DNA from: a virus
IMG/VR virus record: IMGVR_UViG_3300027712_000053
Location: 1-46,230 of that record
Length of the DNA: 46,230 nt
Reading direction: 5' to 3' (one strand)
Shown here: piece by piece, positions 4,402 through 44,674 of the stretch
Numbering within the stretch: position 1 is the first letter of the stretch
Layout: each line of letters opens with the position of its first letter
The notes under the pieces: generated by a model
Databases searched by the model: none
What the model was told of the DNA's origin: nothing
Seen by the model: the letters and a program-made list of their open reading frames with translations, nothing else
Position numbers and translations under genes: made by a program

Positions 4402-4956
4402 CTACTCCCTTCCTTGAGCCCGTTCGGCAGGTTTCCTACCTGCCGAATCGGGCGGTGTGTCTTCATTGAATTCCCCATTGGTAAATTGGTTACCAATGGG
4501 AATTACTTGTAAGGGGCCACGTAGCGTGTGCGCGCCGTTCACGCCTTGTGTACGCGCTGTCCACGCCTCGTGTGCGCTCTGTACACGCCTCGTGTACGGG
4601 GCGCTCACGCTACGTGTACAGGGTGTACACGCTACGTGTGCGCCCCCATCGGTGGGGATCGCAAGCTCGTACACAGACCTAGCACCGCCAGTCGCCTTGT
4701 CAGCAAGCATCAAAACAGATGCGTCAAGCAACTGGTGAATGCCCCGATGTACAGACGTCGGGCGGACCCCAAGAAACTTGGCGGCACCCCTGACGCTCAT
4801 CCGTAGCGTGCACTTCTCGTAATCTGCGAAATGGAGTGCGTAGCACAGCATTAGACGCCCCTCGCTTCCGAGTTCGGCCATACGCCCGCTTTCCAGAATC
4901 CCCCTGTGGCGACGCCGTAGCTCGCCCCTAGCGTTCTTTGATTTGTCATCTGCCAT
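4402..4956 (-). CDS. Replication initiator-like winged-helix protein containing the iterons
   Basis: A 184-residue protein. Residues 15-110 form a helical winged-helix region (GRLMLCYALHFADYEK, SVRGAAKFLGVRPTSVHRGI, HQLLDASVLML). The C-terminal third is encoded by five 22-bp DNA repeats and is low in structure (Ala/Cys/Thr/Arg-rich). The arrangement recalls phage replication proteins such as lambda O, which bind iterons inside their own gene. The ATG at 4956 has an upstream GGAG and overlaps the end of the primase-helicase gene. The initiator role is an inference from position, winged helix and iterons. Confidence 0.65.
   Translation of the reverse strand: MADDKSKNARGELRRRHRGILESGRMAELGSEGRLMLCYALHFADYEKCTLRMSVRGAAKFLGVRPTSVHRGIHQLLDASVLMLADKATGGARSVYELAIPTDGGAHVACTPCTRSVSAPYTRRVQSAHEAWTARTQGVNGAHTLRGPLQVIPIGNQFTNGEFNEDTPPDSAGRKPAERAQGRE
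4423..4447. repeat. Perfect 10-bp inverted repeat (hairpin or operator)
   Basis: TTCGGCAGGT at 4423-4432 pairs with ACCTGCCGAA at 4438-4447 across a 5-nt loop. It lies in the last codons of the replication gene, just upstream of the LexA-like start. There is no T-run, so a protein-binding site or an mRNA hairpin is more likely than a terminator. Confidence 0.7.
4474..4500. repeat. AT-rich inverted repeat beside the iterons
   Basis: CCCATTGGTAA at 4474-4484 is the reverse complement of TTACCAATGGG at 4490-4500. The site lies 23 bp from the first iteron in the most AT-rich stretch of this GC-rich gene. It could be a DNA-unwinding element or an operator of the adjacent origin. Confidence 0.65.
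4523..4642. repeat. Five tandem 22-bp iterons plus a half copy (candidate replication origin)
   Basis: Units at 4523-4544, 4545-4566, 4567-4588, 4589-4610 and 4611-4632, then a half copy at 4633-4642. The consensus is close to CTCGTGTACG, then four to six variable bases, then a TGTNCACGC end, so each unit is itself weakly palindromic (CGTGTAC...GTACACG). The period of 22 is two helical turns and is not a multiple of three, although the repeats lie inside a coding gene. Selection must therefore act on DNA, as expected for initiator-binding iterons. I infer a phage origin. Confidence 0.8.
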
Positions 4957-16072: not shown

Positions 16073-16270
16073 CTAGTCGTGCGGCTGCTGCCAGTACGGC
16101 CCGACACGCTCCGCGTTGCGTGCCAGTTCAGCCAAGAGTCGTTGTCGCTCTCGTAGCAGTCGGATCACGTCCGCCGCGAGCGTGCCGCTGGTGCCGGTGT
16201 ACGCCCCACTGAAACGCCGTGCCCGGTGTTCCATCTGTGCGAGGTCATCGTCGGTGAGCGGCTGCGTCAC
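16073..16270 (-). CDS. Hypothetical phage protein (65 aa)
   Basis: A 65-residue helical protein: LTDDDLAQMEHRARRFSGAY, TLAADVIRLLRERQRLLAEL. Phages often carry short proteins with a DDLxxxxxRA start and a DVxxLLxE coiled helix; the function is unknown. Its start overlaps the DUF1599-like stop. Confidence 0.65.
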   Translation of the reverse strand: MTQPLTDDDLAQMEHRARRFSGAYTGTSGTLAADVIRLLRERQRLLAELARNAERVGPYWQQPHD

Positions 16271-16785
16271 TTGCCTTGATCCTCGCGGTACAAGACGAGC
16301 GTCAACAGCGAGTACGAGGCGAGGTCGAGCAACGTGTCCTCGACTCCTTCAAAGTGCAGTTTGCCTGTGGCGTTGAACGTCTTGAGCCTCGTCACCTTGT
16401 CGGACAGCCGCACCATCGCGGCCTTAAACGCCGGAATGCCGACAAACGTCGCGCCGTTGCGGATGTTGGCAAGCGGATCGGTACCGCTCGGGCACCCGTA
16501 GTCGCTGCTCTTACTCAGGTGCAACTCACGGAGCGTGTCGAGCAGGTCGAGATATTTCTGCGACGTTGGGTGAACACCCGCATGCAGCAGAGAGTCGCCC
16601 GCCAGTCGCAGCACGTCGTCCTCATCGTCGTCGTCGCTTTCGTCTGGCTGCGGAAAGGGCATGTCTGCGGGGAGGTCAATTGCTCTCGGCTGGCACTTGC
16701 CGCCGTCGCAGCATCCGCCAGCCAGCCGTGTTTCAACGGCGTGCCGCAGTTCAGAGTTTGCAAGCAGCATTTGGTCAAGGCTCAT
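16267..16785 (-). CDS. DUF1599-like (nucleotide-modification-associated) protein
   Basis: A 172-residue protein. The first 60 residues contain a Cys-rich segment (GGCCDGGKCQPR) and an acidic run. Residues 80-172 match the DUF1599/Nmad1 pattern: SSDYGCPSGTDPLANIRNGA, GIPAFKAAMVRLSDKVTRLK and GVEDTLLDLASYSLLTLVLY. Such proteins are found in phages with nucleotide-pool or base-modification genes. The start at 16785 has AAAGGG upstream. Confidence 0.65.
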   Translation of the reverse strand: MSLDQMLLANSELRHAVETRLAGGCCDGGKCQPRAIDLPADMPFPQPDESDDDDEDDVLRLAGDSLLHAGVHPTSQKYLDLLDTLRELHLSKSSDYGCPSGTDPLANIRNGATFVGIPAFKAAMVRLSDKVTRLKTFNATGKLHFEGVEDTLLDLASYSLLTLVLYREDQGK

Positions 16786-22076: not shown

Positions 22077-22231
22077 CTCGCCACCTCCTCGACGACCATA
22101 GCGATCTCAGCCGCCAGACTCGCCGCCTGGTCGCTCGCCGCCCAACGCGCGAGCCGCGTGAGCAGGAACGGCCCCACCAACGCGAGTGCCGCGTAGAGTA
22201 AGGCGACGGTGATGGTCTCGTGGTCGGTCAC
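22073..22231 (-). CDS. Small membrane protein (52 aa)
   Basis: A GTG at 22231 overlaps the sulfotransferase-like stop. It gives 52 residues with a membrane helix (VALLYAALALVGPFLLTRLA) and a helical amphipathic tail (DQAASLAAEIAMVVEEVAR). The adjacent small membrane gene and the long neighbours suggest a two-gene holin-like unit within the fibre block, which is an inference. Confidence 0.55.
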   Translation of the reverse strand: MTDHETITVALLYAALALVGPFLLTRLARWAASDQAASLAAEIAMVVEEVAR

Positions 22232-22746
22232 TGGAGCGACTCCCATAAGGCGATGTCTGCCGCGTAGATTTCACGCACACGGGCCTCCTGCTCTGGCGTC
22301 AGCACAGGCTTGGCTTCATCGGCTTCTTCGTTCAGTTGCGGCACCGGCGTTTCTAATCCAAGCCATTCGGCGCAGGTATCAAGCTGGTCGGGAAACCGGA
22401 AGTGCCTTACGCCGGGGGTCATTAACCCCATGGATTCTAAAGACCAAAAATGCCCGTCACGGAGGGTAAGCTCAAGTCCCTCTTCAACGCTCACGCCCTG
22501 CCGCGCGCAGCTTGAGCGGAATCGCTCAACAGGGTCGCGCACCATGCAGCACAGACCATCTGGAACCTCATCATTCAACAGGGCATCGCGCGTCGGCGAA
22601 ACAGAAATCGGATGCCACCTTACTGCGTCGGCGGGTCTTTGTCGCAACGATTCCGGCAACGACTGCCAGCAGATAGAGTAGCTGCCGCTGCGAGAAACAA
22701 CGGCGAATCTGCGTCCATTGGGAACTGTGATTTTTGCGCCTTGCAT
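22228..22746 (-). CDS. Sulfotransferase-like enzyme
   Basis: A 172-residue protein with a PAPS-dependent sulfotransferase pattern: AVVSRSGSYSICWQSL as the 5'-phosphosulfate loop (RSGSxS), CCMVRDPVERFRSSCARQ as the 3'-phosphate site (RDPxxRFxS), and a C-terminal KPVLTPEQEARVREIYAADI typical of Sulfotransfer_2-like proteins. It would transfer sulfate from PAPS to a sugar or surface glycan. It is short for the family, so substrate domains may be reduced. It lies between fibre and membrane genes. A virion-decorating or host-envelope role is an inference. Confidence 0.7.
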   Translation of the reverse strand: MQGAKITVPNGRRFAVVSRSGSYSICWQSLPESLRQRPADAVRWHPISVSPTRDALLNDEVPDGLCCMVRDPVERFRSSCARQGVSVEEGLELTLRDGHFWSLESMGLMTPGVRHFRFPDQLDTCAEWLGLETPVPQLNEEADEAKPVLTPEQEARVREIYAADIALWESLQ

Positions 22747-37141: not shown

Positions 37142-37539
37142 TAGTTCCCCAGTGCGATGATCTTGTACGGAGTTCCGGCAGTGCCGGTGATCGTGACGGC
37201 TGCGGCTGTCCAGCCGGTCGCGTCGTTTGTGGCCAGGACGATTTGCCCTCGCGGCACAGTGCCAACCACAGGGGCACCGGCAACAGTCACGTCAGCGGTC
37301 GATCCCGATGTCGAAAGGTTCTCGACGTACCAGAGTTTCACCCGGCTCAACGAAGATGCCACCGGCAGCGTCGTCGCCGTTGCCCCTACGGTGCCGGTCA
37401 CGGCGTAGACCACACTGACCGCGCCGCTTGTCAAGTACCGCTCAAACGACGCTGGGTACGTCTGGCAGCTTGGAAACACCCCGTCGTCCCGCACCTGAGC
37501 CGTTAGTGCAACAGATACGCGGGCATTTGCGTTAGGCAT
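37141..37539 (-). CDS. Structural protein of the connector region (132 aa)
   Basis: A 132-residue beta-rich protein: NARVSVALTAQVRDDGVFPS, VKLWYVENLSTSGSTADVTV, RGQIVLATNDATGWTAAAV. It overlaps the connector gene by 8 nt and has GGGGGAG ahead of ATG 37539. The Ser/Thr/Val-rich composition suggests a virion decoration or Ig-like protein. No family is recognised. Confidence 0.6.
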   Translation of the reverse strand: MPNANARVSVALTAQVRDDGVFPSCQTYPASFERYLTSGAVSVVYAVTGTVGATATTLPVASSLSRVKLWYVENLSTSGSTADVTVAGAPVVGTVPRGQIVLATNDATGWTAAAVTITGTAGTPYKIIALGN

Positions 37540-38215
37540 AGCTCCCCCAAGAGAACATTGAGAGAAGTTCATCCACGCCAAAAGGAACCGACGCTGCGCT
37601 GCCGTTCATGCTCACGGCCTCTCGCTGACCGTACCAGTGAGCCGCTAGCATGAGGATGGCGTGCCTAATGGGTTTGGGCACCGATCGCCCCGAATCGCCG
37701 TATCCGGCCCACCAGCGAATCGTGACGGCTGCTCTGATCGGCCCAGTCACTGGCCAGTAGCCGTTTACGTTAGGCGTCAGCACTGCGGGCACGCTGGCTC
37801 GCTGGGCAAGGAACGTGCCGGGCTGACTTGTGATGACCGGCACGGCCTCGGTGACGGCAAGCTCTTGCAGCGTCACGTCGAGGTAGTTCACCTCAATCGA
37901 CTGCCGTCCTGCCGTAGGCGAGAACGGCGGCATTGGCAGCGGTAGCTCGATGCCGACAGGAAACGTGTCCAGCTTCATTTCCAGCCGCGTGTCTACGAAA
38001 CACCGCTCGATGCGTGTCTCGCAATACTGCCTCGCCGCCATGATGAGGCCGAGCAGATAATCGTCCTCGTCCTCAGTCTCGACGCGCACGTGTGCCTTGA
38101 GTTCCGCGAGCGAAACAGGCTCAACGATGGGCTGGACGATCCGTTGCAGCGAGCGATACCGCCGTCCAGTTTCGCCAAGATAGTAGTTGGTGAAGACTAG
38201 GTTGTTGTATTGCAT
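37532..38215 (-). CDS. Head-tail connector (HK97 gp6-like)
   Basis: A 227-residue protein of the gp6/gp15 family: PVSLAELKAHVRVETEDEDD, YLLGLIMAARQYCETRIERC, and a C-terminal PKPIRHAILMLAAHWYGQRE. Typical gp6 proteins are about 100-200 residues, and this one has a beta insert between helices (residues 75-180). It should form the ring beneath the portal. Confidence 0.82.
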   Translation of the reverse strand: MQYNNLVFTNYYLGETGRRYRSLQRIVQPIVEPVSLAELKAHVRVETEDEDDYLLGLIMAARQYCETRIERCFVDTRLEMKLDTFPVGIELPLPMPPFSPTAGRQSIEVNYLDVTLQELAVTEAVPVITSQPGTFLAQRASVPAVLTPNVNGYWPVTGPIRAAVTIRWWAGYGDSGRSVPKPIRHAILMLAAHWYGQREAVSMNGSAASVPFGVDELLSMFSWGSYA

Positions 38216-38218
38216 GAA

Positions 38219-38830
38219 CTAGCCCCATCTCGGTGACATTCGCCCGTACCAGTTCACGCCAGCCGGGCCGAGGTGAATCACAGAGAACGGCAGCACGACG
38301 GGCTGCGGAAACAAAGCCTTGAACTCCATGTCACAAGCCGATGCATCCAGAGACCACTCGGCGTACAGCGGGTTGCCAGAACCGTGCGGGTTGTACAGTT
38401 GAAAATACCCCAGCCCCACCGTGCTGTCGCTCGTCCACTGCTTGCTTTCTAAGTCTTGTTGCGTCTGTGCCGTGTGCCGAACGCACGTGTAAAGTGCCGT
38501 TGCGTCACGCAAATGAAAGTTGCAGGCGTACCGCTGAGACGGGTCAATGAGCGTGTCGGCGTCAATCAGCAGCAGCCAGTCATCCGCTCCATTATCCGCC
38601 GCCTCTTGGCCGAGCCGTACCAACGCCGACTTGTTGAACAACGCCCCGCGGTCCCTCACGGCTGCACTTACGATTGCATCCGCACCGCACTCAGCCGCTA
38701 GCGATATAGCTTCGTCGCCTGGGGCAGTGACGACAATTACTCGATCTGCGAACTCACATAATGACGGTAGGGTATGCCGTTGAAGATCGGCATACCCTAC
38801 CGAAGTTGTCACAGCAGTGATGCGAGGCAT
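38219..38830 (-). CDS. Glycosyltransferase-like enzyme inside the capsid module
   Basis: A 203-residue protein with a GT-A type nucleotide-sugar fold: RVIVVTAPGDEAISLAAECG, FNKSALVRLGQEAADN, and DDWLLLIDADTLI with the DxD motif in DAD. A late HLGPAGVNW is consistent with acceptor-side elements. It would transfer a sugar, perhaps to capsid or host surface. Its ATG overlaps the stop of the major capsid gene (TGATG), so it is translated with the capsid. It is a foreign type of gene for this position in HK97-like phages. Confidence 0.72.
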   Translation of the reverse strand: MPRITAVTTSVGYADLQRHTLPSLCEFADRVIVVTAPGDEAISLAAECGADAIVSAAVRDRGALFNKSALVRLGQEAADNGADDWLLLIDADTLIDPSQRYACNFHLRDATALYTCVRHTAQTQQDLESKQWTSDSTVGLGYFQLYNPHGSGNPLYAEWSLDASACDMEFKALFPQPVVLPFSVIHLGPAGVNWYGRMSPRWG

Positions 38831-40314
38831 CAGGCAGCCTTGGTTTGCATCGCCACGATCGCACCGACCTCGGAGGTCGAGCCAGTGCCGTGGACGGCGA
38901 TGTCAAACCGATTCACGGCGACCATGAGGGTCTGGTCGAGCTCGGCGTACCGCTCGGTGCTGGTGCGAATCGTCATGGCCTTGCGGTCGCCGTAGATGGC
39001 ACCGAGTTCAAGGTCACCGAACAGCACCTTCACCTTGCTGTTGTCGGTGCCAAGCGTCGAGTCAAGCACGTTGACCAGCACAACCGGATAGCCCATGAAA
39101 CGCAGGCCGAGTGCGTTCTGCACGTCGTTCTGGCTGTTGCCGCCCGCAAGGCCGGTGCCGCTGCCGCTGGTGAGAGCGAGCCGCTGCATCGACGCCGCGA
39201 AACCGGCGGGCGAGATGAACCACTTGGCATTCGCACGGGCGTAGAGCGGGAGAGCCGCCATCGCGGTCGTGAAGTCCGTGATGGAGAGCGTCTCGAAACT
39301 CGTCGCAGCGGCACTCTGGTACATGCCCTTGAGAGCCGTGCCGCCGTTGCCGGTCGAGACGTTACCCGCGTTGTCGTACTTCGTGGACAACGCCTTGACC
39401 ACGCCCGTGATTCCGCCGTAGGTCGCGGTGCCGTCACCGAGGAACCCAGCAAGGTCGGTGGTTTGCGCGAACGCCCGGCCGATTTCGGTCACGATGTACG
39501 ACGACAGGTCGATGATCGAGTCGGCCAAGATTTCGTTGCTGAGCCGATTCGACACGGCGAGCTTCTTGGCGACGAGGTTGACACGCGACCACGATGCGTT
39601 GGAATCGCTGATCGTATTATTTTCCGAAACCCAGTAGCCGGTCAGCCCGCCCGAACGCTTCGGAATCGAAAGCGTCTCGGCGGTCATGGTCACGCTGCGG
39701 ACGTTTGGCACAAACTGGCCGAACTGGTTGACCAGCACGATGACCTCGTCCAGCACAGGAGCCGGAAGCAGATTGCCGCCGAGCGTGTCGGTGGTGTAGC
39801 CCTGCGCCCGGTACTCGGGAGCGTTGTCGCTGATCCACCGCTTGGCCTCGGTATCACCGAACGCGGAGCGGAAGAACTGACCAGCCTTGTAGGCCCGCTC
39901 GCCAACGTCGGCACCGGGGCGGAAGCCACGAACATGCGAGACACGCGGGACAGCGAAGTTGGGCATGGACTTTTCCTCGGTGATGGTGGCCGCGTCAGCC
40001 TTGACGACGACCGGGGCAGGGGCGGGAGCGGCACGGTTCAAAACCGCACGCAGTTCGAGTTCCTTGGCAGCGATCTTGCGGAGCCGCTCGATCTGGCTCT
40101 TGAGACCCTCGGCTCGCTTGAGCAGCTCTTCCTGCTTGGCAGTCCGCTCGGCCGATGCGACTTCCGTCTCGGTCTCGACGGACTCGGCTTCGCCTTCGTC
40201 GCCCAGAACGCCCATCTCAGCCAGCACGCTGGCGAGGGTGTCGAGCAGCATCTTGACCTGCTTGCCGTCAGCGACGACATCGGCGGCGGGATCGACGGGC
40301 ATTGGGTCGGCCAT
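38830..40314 (-). CDS. HK97-fold major capsid protein with N-terminal delta (scaffold) domain
   Basis: A 494-residue protein. Residues 20-115 form a charged coiled coil (LDTLASVLAEMGVLGDEGEA, LKRAEGLKSQIERLRKIAAK) that acts as a built-in scaffold and is removed by the protease. The mature region has the HK97 pattern (YTTDTLGGNLLPAPVLDEVI, GLTGYWVSENNTISDSN, KLAVSNRLSNEILADSIIDL, ALSTKYDNAGNVSTG, LGLRFMGYPVVLVNVLDSTL). ATG 40314 has GGAGG upstream; the upstream in-frame extension is not needed. Confidence 0.92.
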   Translation of the reverse strand: MADPMPVDPAADVVADGKQVKMLLDTLASVLAEMGVLGDEGEAESVETETEVASAERTAKQEELLKRAEGLKSQIERLRKIAAKELELRAVLNRAAPAPAPVVVKADAATITEEKSMPNFAVPRVSHVRGFRPGADVGERAYKAGQFFRSAFGDTEAKRWISDNAPEYRAQGYTTDTLGGNLLPAPVLDEVIVLVNQFGQFVPNVRSVTMTAETLSIPKRSGGLTGYWVSENNTISDSNASWSRVNLVAKKLAVSNRLSNEILADSIIDLSSYIVTEIGRAFAQTTDLAGFLGDGTATYGGITGVVKALSTKYDNAGNVSTGNGGTALKGMYQSAAATSFETLSITDFTTAMAALPLYARANAKWFISPAGFAASMQRLALTSGSGTGLAGGNSQNDVQNALGLRFMGYPVVLVNVLDSTLGTDNSKVKVLFGDLELGAIYGDRKAMTIRTSTERYAELDQTLMVAVNRFDIAVHGTGSTSEVGAIVAMQTKAA

Positions 40315-40406: not shown

Positions 40407-40583
40407 CTATGTAGAACGCTTGCGGATGTCGGCGGCTCTCACGATGCAGCGGCATCGCACGCCGCACAGCTTGCACTCAAGGTAGCGAAGCTGAAATTCG
40501 CCGCGAGGCTTGCTGGTGATCGTCCTCATGCGACCCTCGCCGCACTCGCATGTATCGCCGGATCGCTTTTTAGCGTGCAGCAT
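40407..40583 (-). CDS. Small zinc-ribbon protein between protease and capsid (58 aa)
   Basis: A 58-residue basic protein with two Cys pairs: CECG after a short start, then LECKLCGVRCRC. This resembles small phage zinc-ribbon (Com-like) proteins that bind nucleic acid. ATG 40583 lies in the end of the protease gene and AAGG precedes it. The 90 bp between its stop and the capsid start hold the capsid ribosome site. Confidence 0.6.
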   Translation of the reverse strand: MLHAKKRSGDTCECGEGRMRTITSKPRGEFQLRYLECKLCGVRCRCIVRAADIRKRST

Positions 40584-43031: not shown

Positions 43032-44674
43032 AGGAGAATGATCTGCGGTTCTGGTGCTGGCGGTTTCTGTTCTTCACCGATCCAAGCACCGATCGCCATG
43101 ACCAGTGCGATGATGCCGTCCACTCGCTCGCCACTGTTTTGCTTCGGCTTGAGCGGTCGTATTAATCCCTCTGCGTTCTGCCTCACTGCGACGTTGTTGC
43201 TTTGCCAATCCAGCACCGGCGACTGATGACGAATCTTGCCGTTTGCCAGCATCGACTCTAGCTGACGACCCGGAGCGTTCATTCCGGCGAACCCCTGCGG
43301 GTATCGCTTGACCGGGATGCCCAAGCCGTCGAGTTGATTGCTCAAGTGCGTTGCGTTGTACGGGTCAACCGCCACCATCCGCACTTGATACTTCTGGCAG
43401 AACTCCTCCACGTCACGCTTAATGAAGTCGTAGTCGGTCACGTTGCCAGGCGTGGCGACAATATGACCCTCACGGACAAATTGTGAATAGGCAAAGCGAT
43501 CTCGTCGCTCACGATCCTCCATCATGTCGGCCGGTATGTAGAACTTTGCCAGCACGTCAACGCCGCCATCAGCGACTGGAAACACAGCAACCATCGCAGA
43601 CGTATCTTGCGACCACGCCAAGTCGAGGCCCACCCAGCACGGCTTGCCGTCAAGCGGCTCGGTCGGTGGCAGCGAGCAGGCAGACCACAACTCTGGCTTG
43701 AGCCAGCGGGTGTCCTGTTGCGTCCAGACATTGAGACGGTATCGCAAAAATGCGTTCAGCTTGCTGGTTGAGTTTGCCGCCTCTTTTGCTTCTGCGGCAA
43801 AGTCATCCTCGTTGATCGTGATTCCGAACGAAGGGTTTGCTTTCTTCCAAGTCTGTGGCGACTTCCAATCGTCCGCCAACGTCGCACAGCGTATGTAAGA
43901 AAAAAACGTCGGATCAACTGTCCAATCTGCGGCAACACGCTCGGCGTATTGCCTTTGCTCGTAGCAGATGGAGTTTCGGTCGTAGCCAGCCGTCGTGATT
44001 GAGCACAGCAATGGCTGGTCTCTTGCGGCACCGCCATACCGCAAAGCGTCAAACAGACGCCGATCCCTCTGAGCGTGCAACTCGTCAAATAGCAGCCCGT
44101 GGATATTCAAGCCCTCCGCGCGAAACCCATCGGCGGATAGCACGCGGTAAACACTCGCGGTGGACAAATACGTGATCGTCTTCCGCGACTCAATCACCTC
44201 AAGTCGCTTCGCCAAGTGCGGACTCTGTCGCACGCACTCAGCAGCCTCTCGGTAGCAGATAGACGCCTGAGCACGGTCGGCAGCGCACGAATAAACCTCG
44301 CTTCCACGCTCGCCGTCTGCCACCAGGAGATACAACCCGATTCCAGACAGCAGTGTAGATTTGCCGTGATGTCTTGGCCCTCGCAGCTACCACGCTGCGA
44401 GGGCCAAGACACCGTTTTTTTTGGGCACCTCGATGTACGCCAGGCGATACCGTCGCAGGTCGTCCTTGACTCGAAGCCACCCAAACAACTCCTCGACAAT
44501 ATCCACCTTCTGCCACTCAAGGAGCTTAAACGGCTGGCCCGCCCACTTGCCCTTGCTGTGATGCAAGAACGTCTCAAAGAACCGCACGGGCCTCGCCGCC
44601 GCCTCTTTGTCGAAGTAGTAGTCAAGCCCCTGGGCGACTGCGTCCGCTTTTGACAAACGCTTCAAACGGGTCAT
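43028..44674 (-). CDS. terL: Terminase large subunit, interrupted at Walker A by a 48-bp hairpin
   Basis: The packaging ATPase-nuclease. Two same-frame segments match one protein: 44387-44674 (95 residues, ending in front of the P-loop) and 43028-44335 (435 residues). After exact removal of 48 nt the reading is IEVPKKNGKSTLLSGIGLY, a normal Walker A (KKNGKST), giving 532 residues. Walker B is GLLFDELHAQ; the nuclease acidic residues are VGLDLAWSQD, MVAVDPYNAT and ERVDGIIA. As read normally the chain stops at a TAG inside the insert, and the second segment lacks a Walker A. The gene overlaps TerS by 53 nt and the portal by 4 nt. It is either a broken gene or one read through by a special mechanism. 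Confidence 0.85.
44366..44413 (-). other. 48-bp insert with an 18-bp perfect hairpin and amber codon in terL
   Basis: On the minus strand the insert starts at a GGT (Gly) codon directly after AAC and ends before a GGC (Gly) codon. It contains TGTCTTGGCCCTCGCAGC, a 6-nt loop GTGGTA and the exact reverse complement of the arm. Its length is a multiple of three, and TAG stands in the ninth of 16 codons, at the top of the stem. ACGG occurs at both borders. Removing it gives a normal P-loop. Confidence 0.85.

Follow-up and report, generated by a model that had tools for sequence, protein, structure and literature searches.

Why does a phage carry a predicted glycosyltransferase gene between the genes for its major capsid protein and its head–tail connector? 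The question is raised by a 46,230-bp IMG/VR virus record (hereafter the window, by which we mean the whole stretch of DNA analysed). Its minus strand encodes a standard HK97-type head module in the order small terminase, large terminase, portal, S78 protease, major capsid protein (MCP), glycosyltransferase (GT) open reading frame (ORF) and gp6-like connector; a small ORF, a head completion gene, an HK97-gp10-like gene and the tail genes follow. A preliminary description of the window had read the ORF as a GT-A-like enzyme with a DAD motif and had proposed that, together with a sulfotransferase, it forms a virion glycosylation system placed in the structural operon.

The GT gene (38219–38830, minus strand) runs from an ATG start to a TAG stop and encodes 203 residues. 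It lies inside the virion-structure operon as described, between the MCP gene (38830–40314, minus strand; PF05065 Phage_capsid, E=1.3e-37) and the connector gene (37532–38215, minus strand; PF05135 Phage_connect_1, E=2.9e-11), whose ATG is 3 nt past the GT stop. The description also had the ORF starting on the capsid stop codon, and it does: the MCP stop and the GT start overlap by one base in the sequence TGATG (38832–38828). The open frame of the MCP gene reaches a GTG at 40476, but the start is most likely the ATG at 40314 because relatives align from MADxxP. This junction suggests that the GT gene is placed for translational coupling to MCP, with coupling as its probable mechanism of expression.

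A predicted GT-A glycosyltransferase

The AlphaFold model of GT, built from an alignment of its family, is of high confidence (pLDDT 93.6, pTM 0.91) and presents the entire 203 residues as one globular GT-A domain. Its best match in the PDB is K4CP (2z87; Z 17.3, 2.7 Å over 184 residues), with 6p61 (Z 17.3), WrtF, GalNAc-T2 and TarS also among the matches; GT-A enzymes make up nearly all of the best 50.

The active-site motifs are in place as well. In a 30-sequence alignment whose members are 23–41% identical to the window protein, 13 residues are invariant (N66, D90, D92, R118, G141, D167, F170, H186, G188, N193, W194, G196 and R197), and GT keeps every one of them. D90 and D92 belong to the DAD motif (residues 90–92; 38555–38563, minus strand), and the last six belong to a C-terminal family signature, HLGPAGVNWYGR (residues 186–197; 38240–38275, minus strand), in which H186 is a candidate metal or substrate ligand. 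The reading as a GT-A-like enzyme with DAD is thus borne out by the model, the fold matches and the two invariant aspartates; loss of the DxD motif, named in the preliminary description as counting against it, is not seen across the alignment. Taken together, the predicted fold and the conserved motifs give good support to GT being a soluble GT-A glycosyltransferase whose active-site signature is intact, and the protein is predicted to transfer sugar.

The same conservation bears on whether the GT-A domain might be catalytically dead and serve instead as a capsid-assembly or decoration protein. Such a role would suit the tight capsid linkage, and the equivalent slot in relatives also holds small phrog_5707-type ORFs. 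However, DxD, FNK, R118, D167, H186 and NWxGR have all been kept at 23–41% overall identity, as expected of a working enzyme, and we regard a dead enzyme as highly improbable.

Sequence databases barely recognise the protein. GT scores 17.1 bits (E=0.0057) against PF13641, below the Pfam cut-off of 27, so that it does not reach membership of the curated Pfam glycosyltransferase family 2. Pfam scans of 30 family members gave weak matches in single members (best PF13704, E=3.9e-5), PHROG and NCBIfam scans of GT gave none, a PDB sequence search returned no meaningful relative, and tblastn against 50,697 phage and 72,556 plasmid records found nothing at E≤1. GT2-type enzymes (PF13641/PF13704/PF00535; K4CP, the WrtF fucosyltransferase, GalNAc-T2) share the fold (Z 16–17) and the DxD motif with GT, yet GT is only 10–16% identical to them and has its own C-terminal signature, HLGPxxxNWxGR.

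The enzyme family and its gene neighbours

That signature was the lead to further members: a DNA pattern for it found 59 stretches in IMG/VR. The matches held up in tblastn searches, in which more than 40 loci other than that of the window virus reach E≤1e-6. With homologues that share the conserved motifs at E values down to 7e-28, the ORF is evidently more than a chance reading frame. The family motifs (FNK, DxD, R118, GYFQL, D167 and HLGPxxxNWxGR) are all present in the window protein. By contrast with these viral loci, about 85k bacterial and archaeal genomes gave 16 matches to the signature, of which one (L168) is a clear homologue, and the family looks virus-enriched and mostly viral. 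A profile scan with a subset of the family alignment found only already-known loci; the match of the family profile to the window GT is not independent, because the window GT is one of its seeds. Pfam, PHROGs and NCBIfam barely recognise the family as a whole.

The company kept by these homologues is informative. In the loci examined their neighbours are other glycosyltransferases, methyltransferases (including TylF/Methyltransf_24) and radical-SAM genes, and the family therefore looks like a glycan-modification family found in glycan cassettes. The window GT shares its enzyme family with such phage cassettes (for example L113, L140 and L141), but there the gene has these neighbours and no HK97-type MCP next to it, whereas in the window it stands alone, adjoining the capsid gene. 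Only one of 34 family-bearing records has a Pfam HK97 capsid match, with the capsid and GT genes about 15 kb apart, although this test may miss other capsid types and many of the records are fragments. Linkage to the capsid gene thus does not look like a property of the family, whose members lie elsewhere in other phages; adjacency was seen only in the window virus.

A gene absent from close relatives

Nor is the linkage conserved among the closest relatives of the window virus, the comparison by which the preliminary description had proposed to judge it. All seven close relatives (L003–L008 and L011; MCP 82–94% and connector 90–95% identical) lack the GT gene and have an MCP–connector gap of about 108–115 nt. 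G004 (49.7 kb) and G006 (19 kb; portal 95% identical) are two GT-less relatives whose head and early tail operons match that of the window gene for gene, with GT the sole difference. We considered whether the gene had moved elsewhere and rejected this, as neither G004 nor the other GT-less records searched have a match anywhere. Foreign base composition as a sign of transfer also found no support, the GC (58.2%) and GC3 (64.7%) of the GT gene being within the range of its neighbours.

What the close relatives have in place of the gene is a short spacer with a stable stem, GCGGGGAGGTAGG/CCTACCTCCCCGC, followed by TTTCTTT, the hairpin lying about 52–54 nt past the MCP stop. It is conserved in all seven and is terminator-like. 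The absence of GT from these relatives, with the terminator-like spacer there instead, points by parsimony to a gain on the window virus's branch through a recent, isolated single-gene insertion. Judging from the sequences, the acquisition is likely to have cost the phage a post-capsid terminator or attenuator. At a similar place, four other records (L072, L080, L082 and L085) carry an unrelated hairpin, GCGGGCCGC...GCGGCCCGC, followed by a T-rich run. Terminating transcription behind the capsid gene may be a control that many of these phages share, and the GT-bearing and GT-less viruses whose portals are 95% identical offer a natural comparison.

An isolated single-gene insertion into an otherwise syntenic operon is also what an accessory cargo gene (a moron) would leave behind. 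GT could then alter a host surface glycan, for receptor masking or superinfection exclusion, and use the capsid operon only for its expression; the integrase in this phage and the glycan-modification cassettes that harbour GT homologues fit with that. However, GT is modelled as one globular domain with no membrane anchor and has no flippase partner, unlike GtrB-type enzymes. Nor does it match Gtr-type serotype conversion, where a small operon pairs a GtrA flippase with membrane-anchored GtrB: the neighbours of GT are MCP and the connector. Moreover, GT adjoins a late gene, which would put its expression at assembly and not in the lysogen, and in wider relatives the slot beside the capsid gene belongs to another GT-A-like family (see below). 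We consider the cargo explanation unlikely, if still worth bearing in mind.

A hairpin inside the gene

The GT gene contains a hairpin of its own. Codons 10–22 (38765–38802, minus strand) form a perfect 15-bp stem with an 8-nt loop, about 30 nt past the MCP stop; the folding z-score is −4.1 and a T run is absent. None of 200,000 synonymous recodings of the hairpin residues forms all 15 pairs, and the best stem in 3,000 recodings of the whole gene has 13. The hairpin is far beyond what chance synonymous codon choice produces. It may have taken over the role of the lost spacer hairpin, protecting the capsid message or causing pausing there; alternatively, it may have arisen by palindrome-correcting mutation. 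We rejected a mobile insert as its origin, since the encoded residues align to the family without a gap and no further copy was found in IMG/VR.

A second predicted glycosyltransferase family in the same slot

Wider relatives, collected by their portals (about 50% identity), often have an MCP–connector interval of about 1.0–1.5 kb. It encodes a different protein, which we call A3: 244 residues with an invariant DxD (D73, D75) and HFG and GHGE motifs, near phrog_1574 (function not catalogued) and exemplified by L037:13212–13943. The AlphaFold model of A3 is of medium confidence (pLDDT 71.6), its core being higher, and matches LH3 (Z 14.2), STIV A197 (13.3), mimivirus R699 (12.8) and COLGALT1 (11.9). 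These matches suggest a GT-A-like fold and a predicted glycosyltransferase. Sequence homology between A3 and the window GT was considered and rejected (hhalign probability 2.9%). What the two have in common, within the limits of the A3 model, is the GT-A-like fold, the DxD motif and the slot between MCP and connector.

The linkage of A3 to this slot is perfect in the sample. A scan of IMG/VR with the A3 protein itself as query, rather than head genes, gave at least 589 matches; in the best 80 of these, MCP lies directly upstream at 58 of 58 testable loci and the connector directly downstream at 69 of 69, a regularity that partly reflects common descent because the loci come from related phages. 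Often one small ORF separates A3 from MCP. Such ORFs after MCP in wider relatives (L037:12710–13135, L022:6396–6836 and L012:1502–1957) encode phrog_5707 proteins of 142–152 residues, which could be decoration proteins.

With a different GT-A-like family in the identical slot, capsid-linked predicted glycosyltransferases are a recurrent arrangement in this phage group, and chance placement of the window GT becomes less likely. A broader proposition can be built on this. The post-capsid interval would be a dedicated glycosyltransferase slot in a large uncultured HK97-type group (possibly Planctomycetota phages), one that would have taken in unrelated GT-A enzymes on two or more occasions; glycosylated capsids would be widespread there, the enzyme being expressed in step with the capsid protein, and the window virus would have given up a terminator in exchange for an enzyme gene. 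We offer this tentatively, as falling somewhat short of an even chance.

The virion as predicted acceptor

What, then, would the window enzyme glycosylate? It is the position of the gene that suggests a virion protein. We propose that stop–start translational coupling yields a soluble cytoplasmic GT-A enzyme late in infection, along with the capsid protein; that it would transfer sugar from a nucleotide-sugar donor, through its DxD metal site, onto the phage's own virion, with MCP as the likeliest acceptor; and that its gene is a recent gain of this virus's branch, standing where all seven close relatives have the short spacer and its terminator-like hairpin. As a whole we give this explanation an even chance. 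Its core, that GT is placed with the capsid gene for the glycosylation of some virion protein, is at least that probable and perhaps somewhat better, and MCP in particular as the target is less probable than the core.

One feature of MCP itself is suggestive. The loop STKYDNAGNVSTGNGG (39340–39387, minus strand; residues 364–379 in the 548-residue numbering) is longer and richer in N, S, T and G than in the GT-less close relatives compared, and when more MCPs are aligned none of the others is similarly rich in N/S/T/G at that site. This loop is a speculative candidate for the acceptor site; as one case it is only suggestive. GT might act instead on another virion protein, such as the connector, the tail tube or the fibres: its gene lies upstream of the connector and tail genes, and mycobacteriophage enzymes are described as acting on capsid and tail tube (PMC12619734, PMC12363180 and PMC11600133). 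Against this, the GT start codon is on the stop of MCP, and the connector showed no acceptor-specific feature and is 90–95% identical to that of GT-less relatives. We judge such a target improbable.

The preferred reading, glycosylation of the virion by a phage enzyme, has precedents. The reports of phage virion glycosylation that we found have mycobacteriophages as their subject—Che8, Corndog and Myrna (PMC12363180, PMC12619734 and PMC11600133, all citing Freeman et al. 2023). PMC12363180, citing Freeman et al. 2023, describes Che8 gp110 and Corndog gp38 as indispensable if the capsid is to be glycosylated; PMC11600133, which draws on the same study, says that cluster O enzymes act on both the capsid and the tail tube. 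The Corndogvirus Krili has its cassette (gp33–35) in the head operon, with an O-methyltransferase and three glycosyltransferases between portal and protease. The proposed function is therefore of a known kind, although the enzyme family and the arrangement differ. Phage-encoded glycosyltransferases are common to the window and to Che8 gp108–110, Corndog gp38 and the Krili cassette, and Corndogvirus, like the window virus, has them inside the head operon, whereas those of Che8 are elsewhere. However, the window GT is a single gene without methyltransferase partners and sits after MCP, while the Krili cassette precedes the protease; moreover, the window phage is uncultured and, unlike these three, not a known actinobacteriophage. 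By profile comparison GT shows no homology to either Che8 gp110 (hhalign probability 0.3%, E 0.24) or gp109 (2.4%).

A quite different acceptor would be the phage's DNA, with the sugar added to a hypermodified base. Phage glycosyltransferases can act on DNA (PMC12619734), and the window has a sub-threshold match to DUF1599 (nucleotide modification associated domain 1) at 16267–16785 on the minus strand (E=0.013). However, that ORF is also present, 88% conserved, in the GT-less G004, none of the ORFs scanned gave an above-threshold match to a base-modification gene, and GT is located in the late head operon rather than the replication region. The DNA glucosyltransferases of T4 are GT-B enzymes with base-modification genes alongside, and the window GT, a predicted GT-A enzyme, matches neither feature; this comparison bears on the T4 type and not on other classes of DNA glycosyltransferase. 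DNA as the acceptor is very unlikely.

A sulfotransferase had been named as the partner of GT. The ORF probably meant (22228–22746, minus strand; 172 residues) is in the tail-fibre region, about 15.5 kb from GT. It looks sulfotransferase-like by eye, its RDPVERFRSS resembling a 3'-phosphate-binding motif; Pfam, PHROG and NCBIfam scans gave no match, and it was not found in 16 records searched, in a search run without a positive control. At that distance, with no family match and no counterpart found in relatives, its place in one glycosylation unit with GT is unsupported. What survives of the proposed virion glycosylation system is a predicted glycosyltransferase with intact motifs and a slot that recurs for such enzymes (58/58 and 69/69); a conserved linkage and the sulfotransferase partner find no support.

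Overall, the predicted fold, the intact motifs, the glycan cassettes that house its homologues, the TGATG junction, the A3 slot, the mycobacteriophage precedent and the MCP loop argue for glycosylation of the virion. Against it stand the unconserved position of GT, a family that elsewhere is not beside an HK97 MCP and the lack of homology to Che8 gp110; furthermore, accessory genes could simply be tolerated where GT has landed, beside MCP. Between them, the window GT and A3 bring two more predicted glycosyltransferase families to light, both without a catalogued function. If both act on the capsid, sugar-coated capsids would be common among environmental phages and the MCP–connector slot would predict which phages have them.

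Host and other features of the window

The host may plausibly be a member of Planctomycetota. Genomes from the phylum to which a Planctomycetota MAG belongs include portals at 34–39% identity with connectors nearby, and 31 of 294 have some portal match; the signal is weaker in the phylum of a Verrucomicrobiales MAG, where 3 of 241 genomes have one (best 29%). Neither the GT nor the A3 family was found in 12 portal-bearing genome stretches from the former phylum.

Elsewhere in the window, nested inverted repeats of CACGCCTCGTG/CACGCTACGTG-like units occupy 4562–4646. The large terminase gene contains a 48-nt in-frame insert (44363–44413, minus strand) that splits Walker A: EVPKKNG|VLALAAW*LRGPRHHG|KSTLL. 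The insert forms a perfect 18-bp hairpin (arms 44370–44387 and 44394–44411), has an in-frame TAG (44389–44387) and is flanked by the Gly codons GGT and GGC. Relatives that lack it read PKKNGKST (L005) or AKKSGKST (L004 and L007), and the same insert was found only in L009/L176. The terminase may be inactivated, or an internal start may be used. Alternatively, skipping from GGT to GGC would restore Walker A exactly, which resembles the translational bypassing of T4 gene 60, where a 50-nt gap with Gly take-off and landing codons and a stop codon is passed over (PMC11194080).
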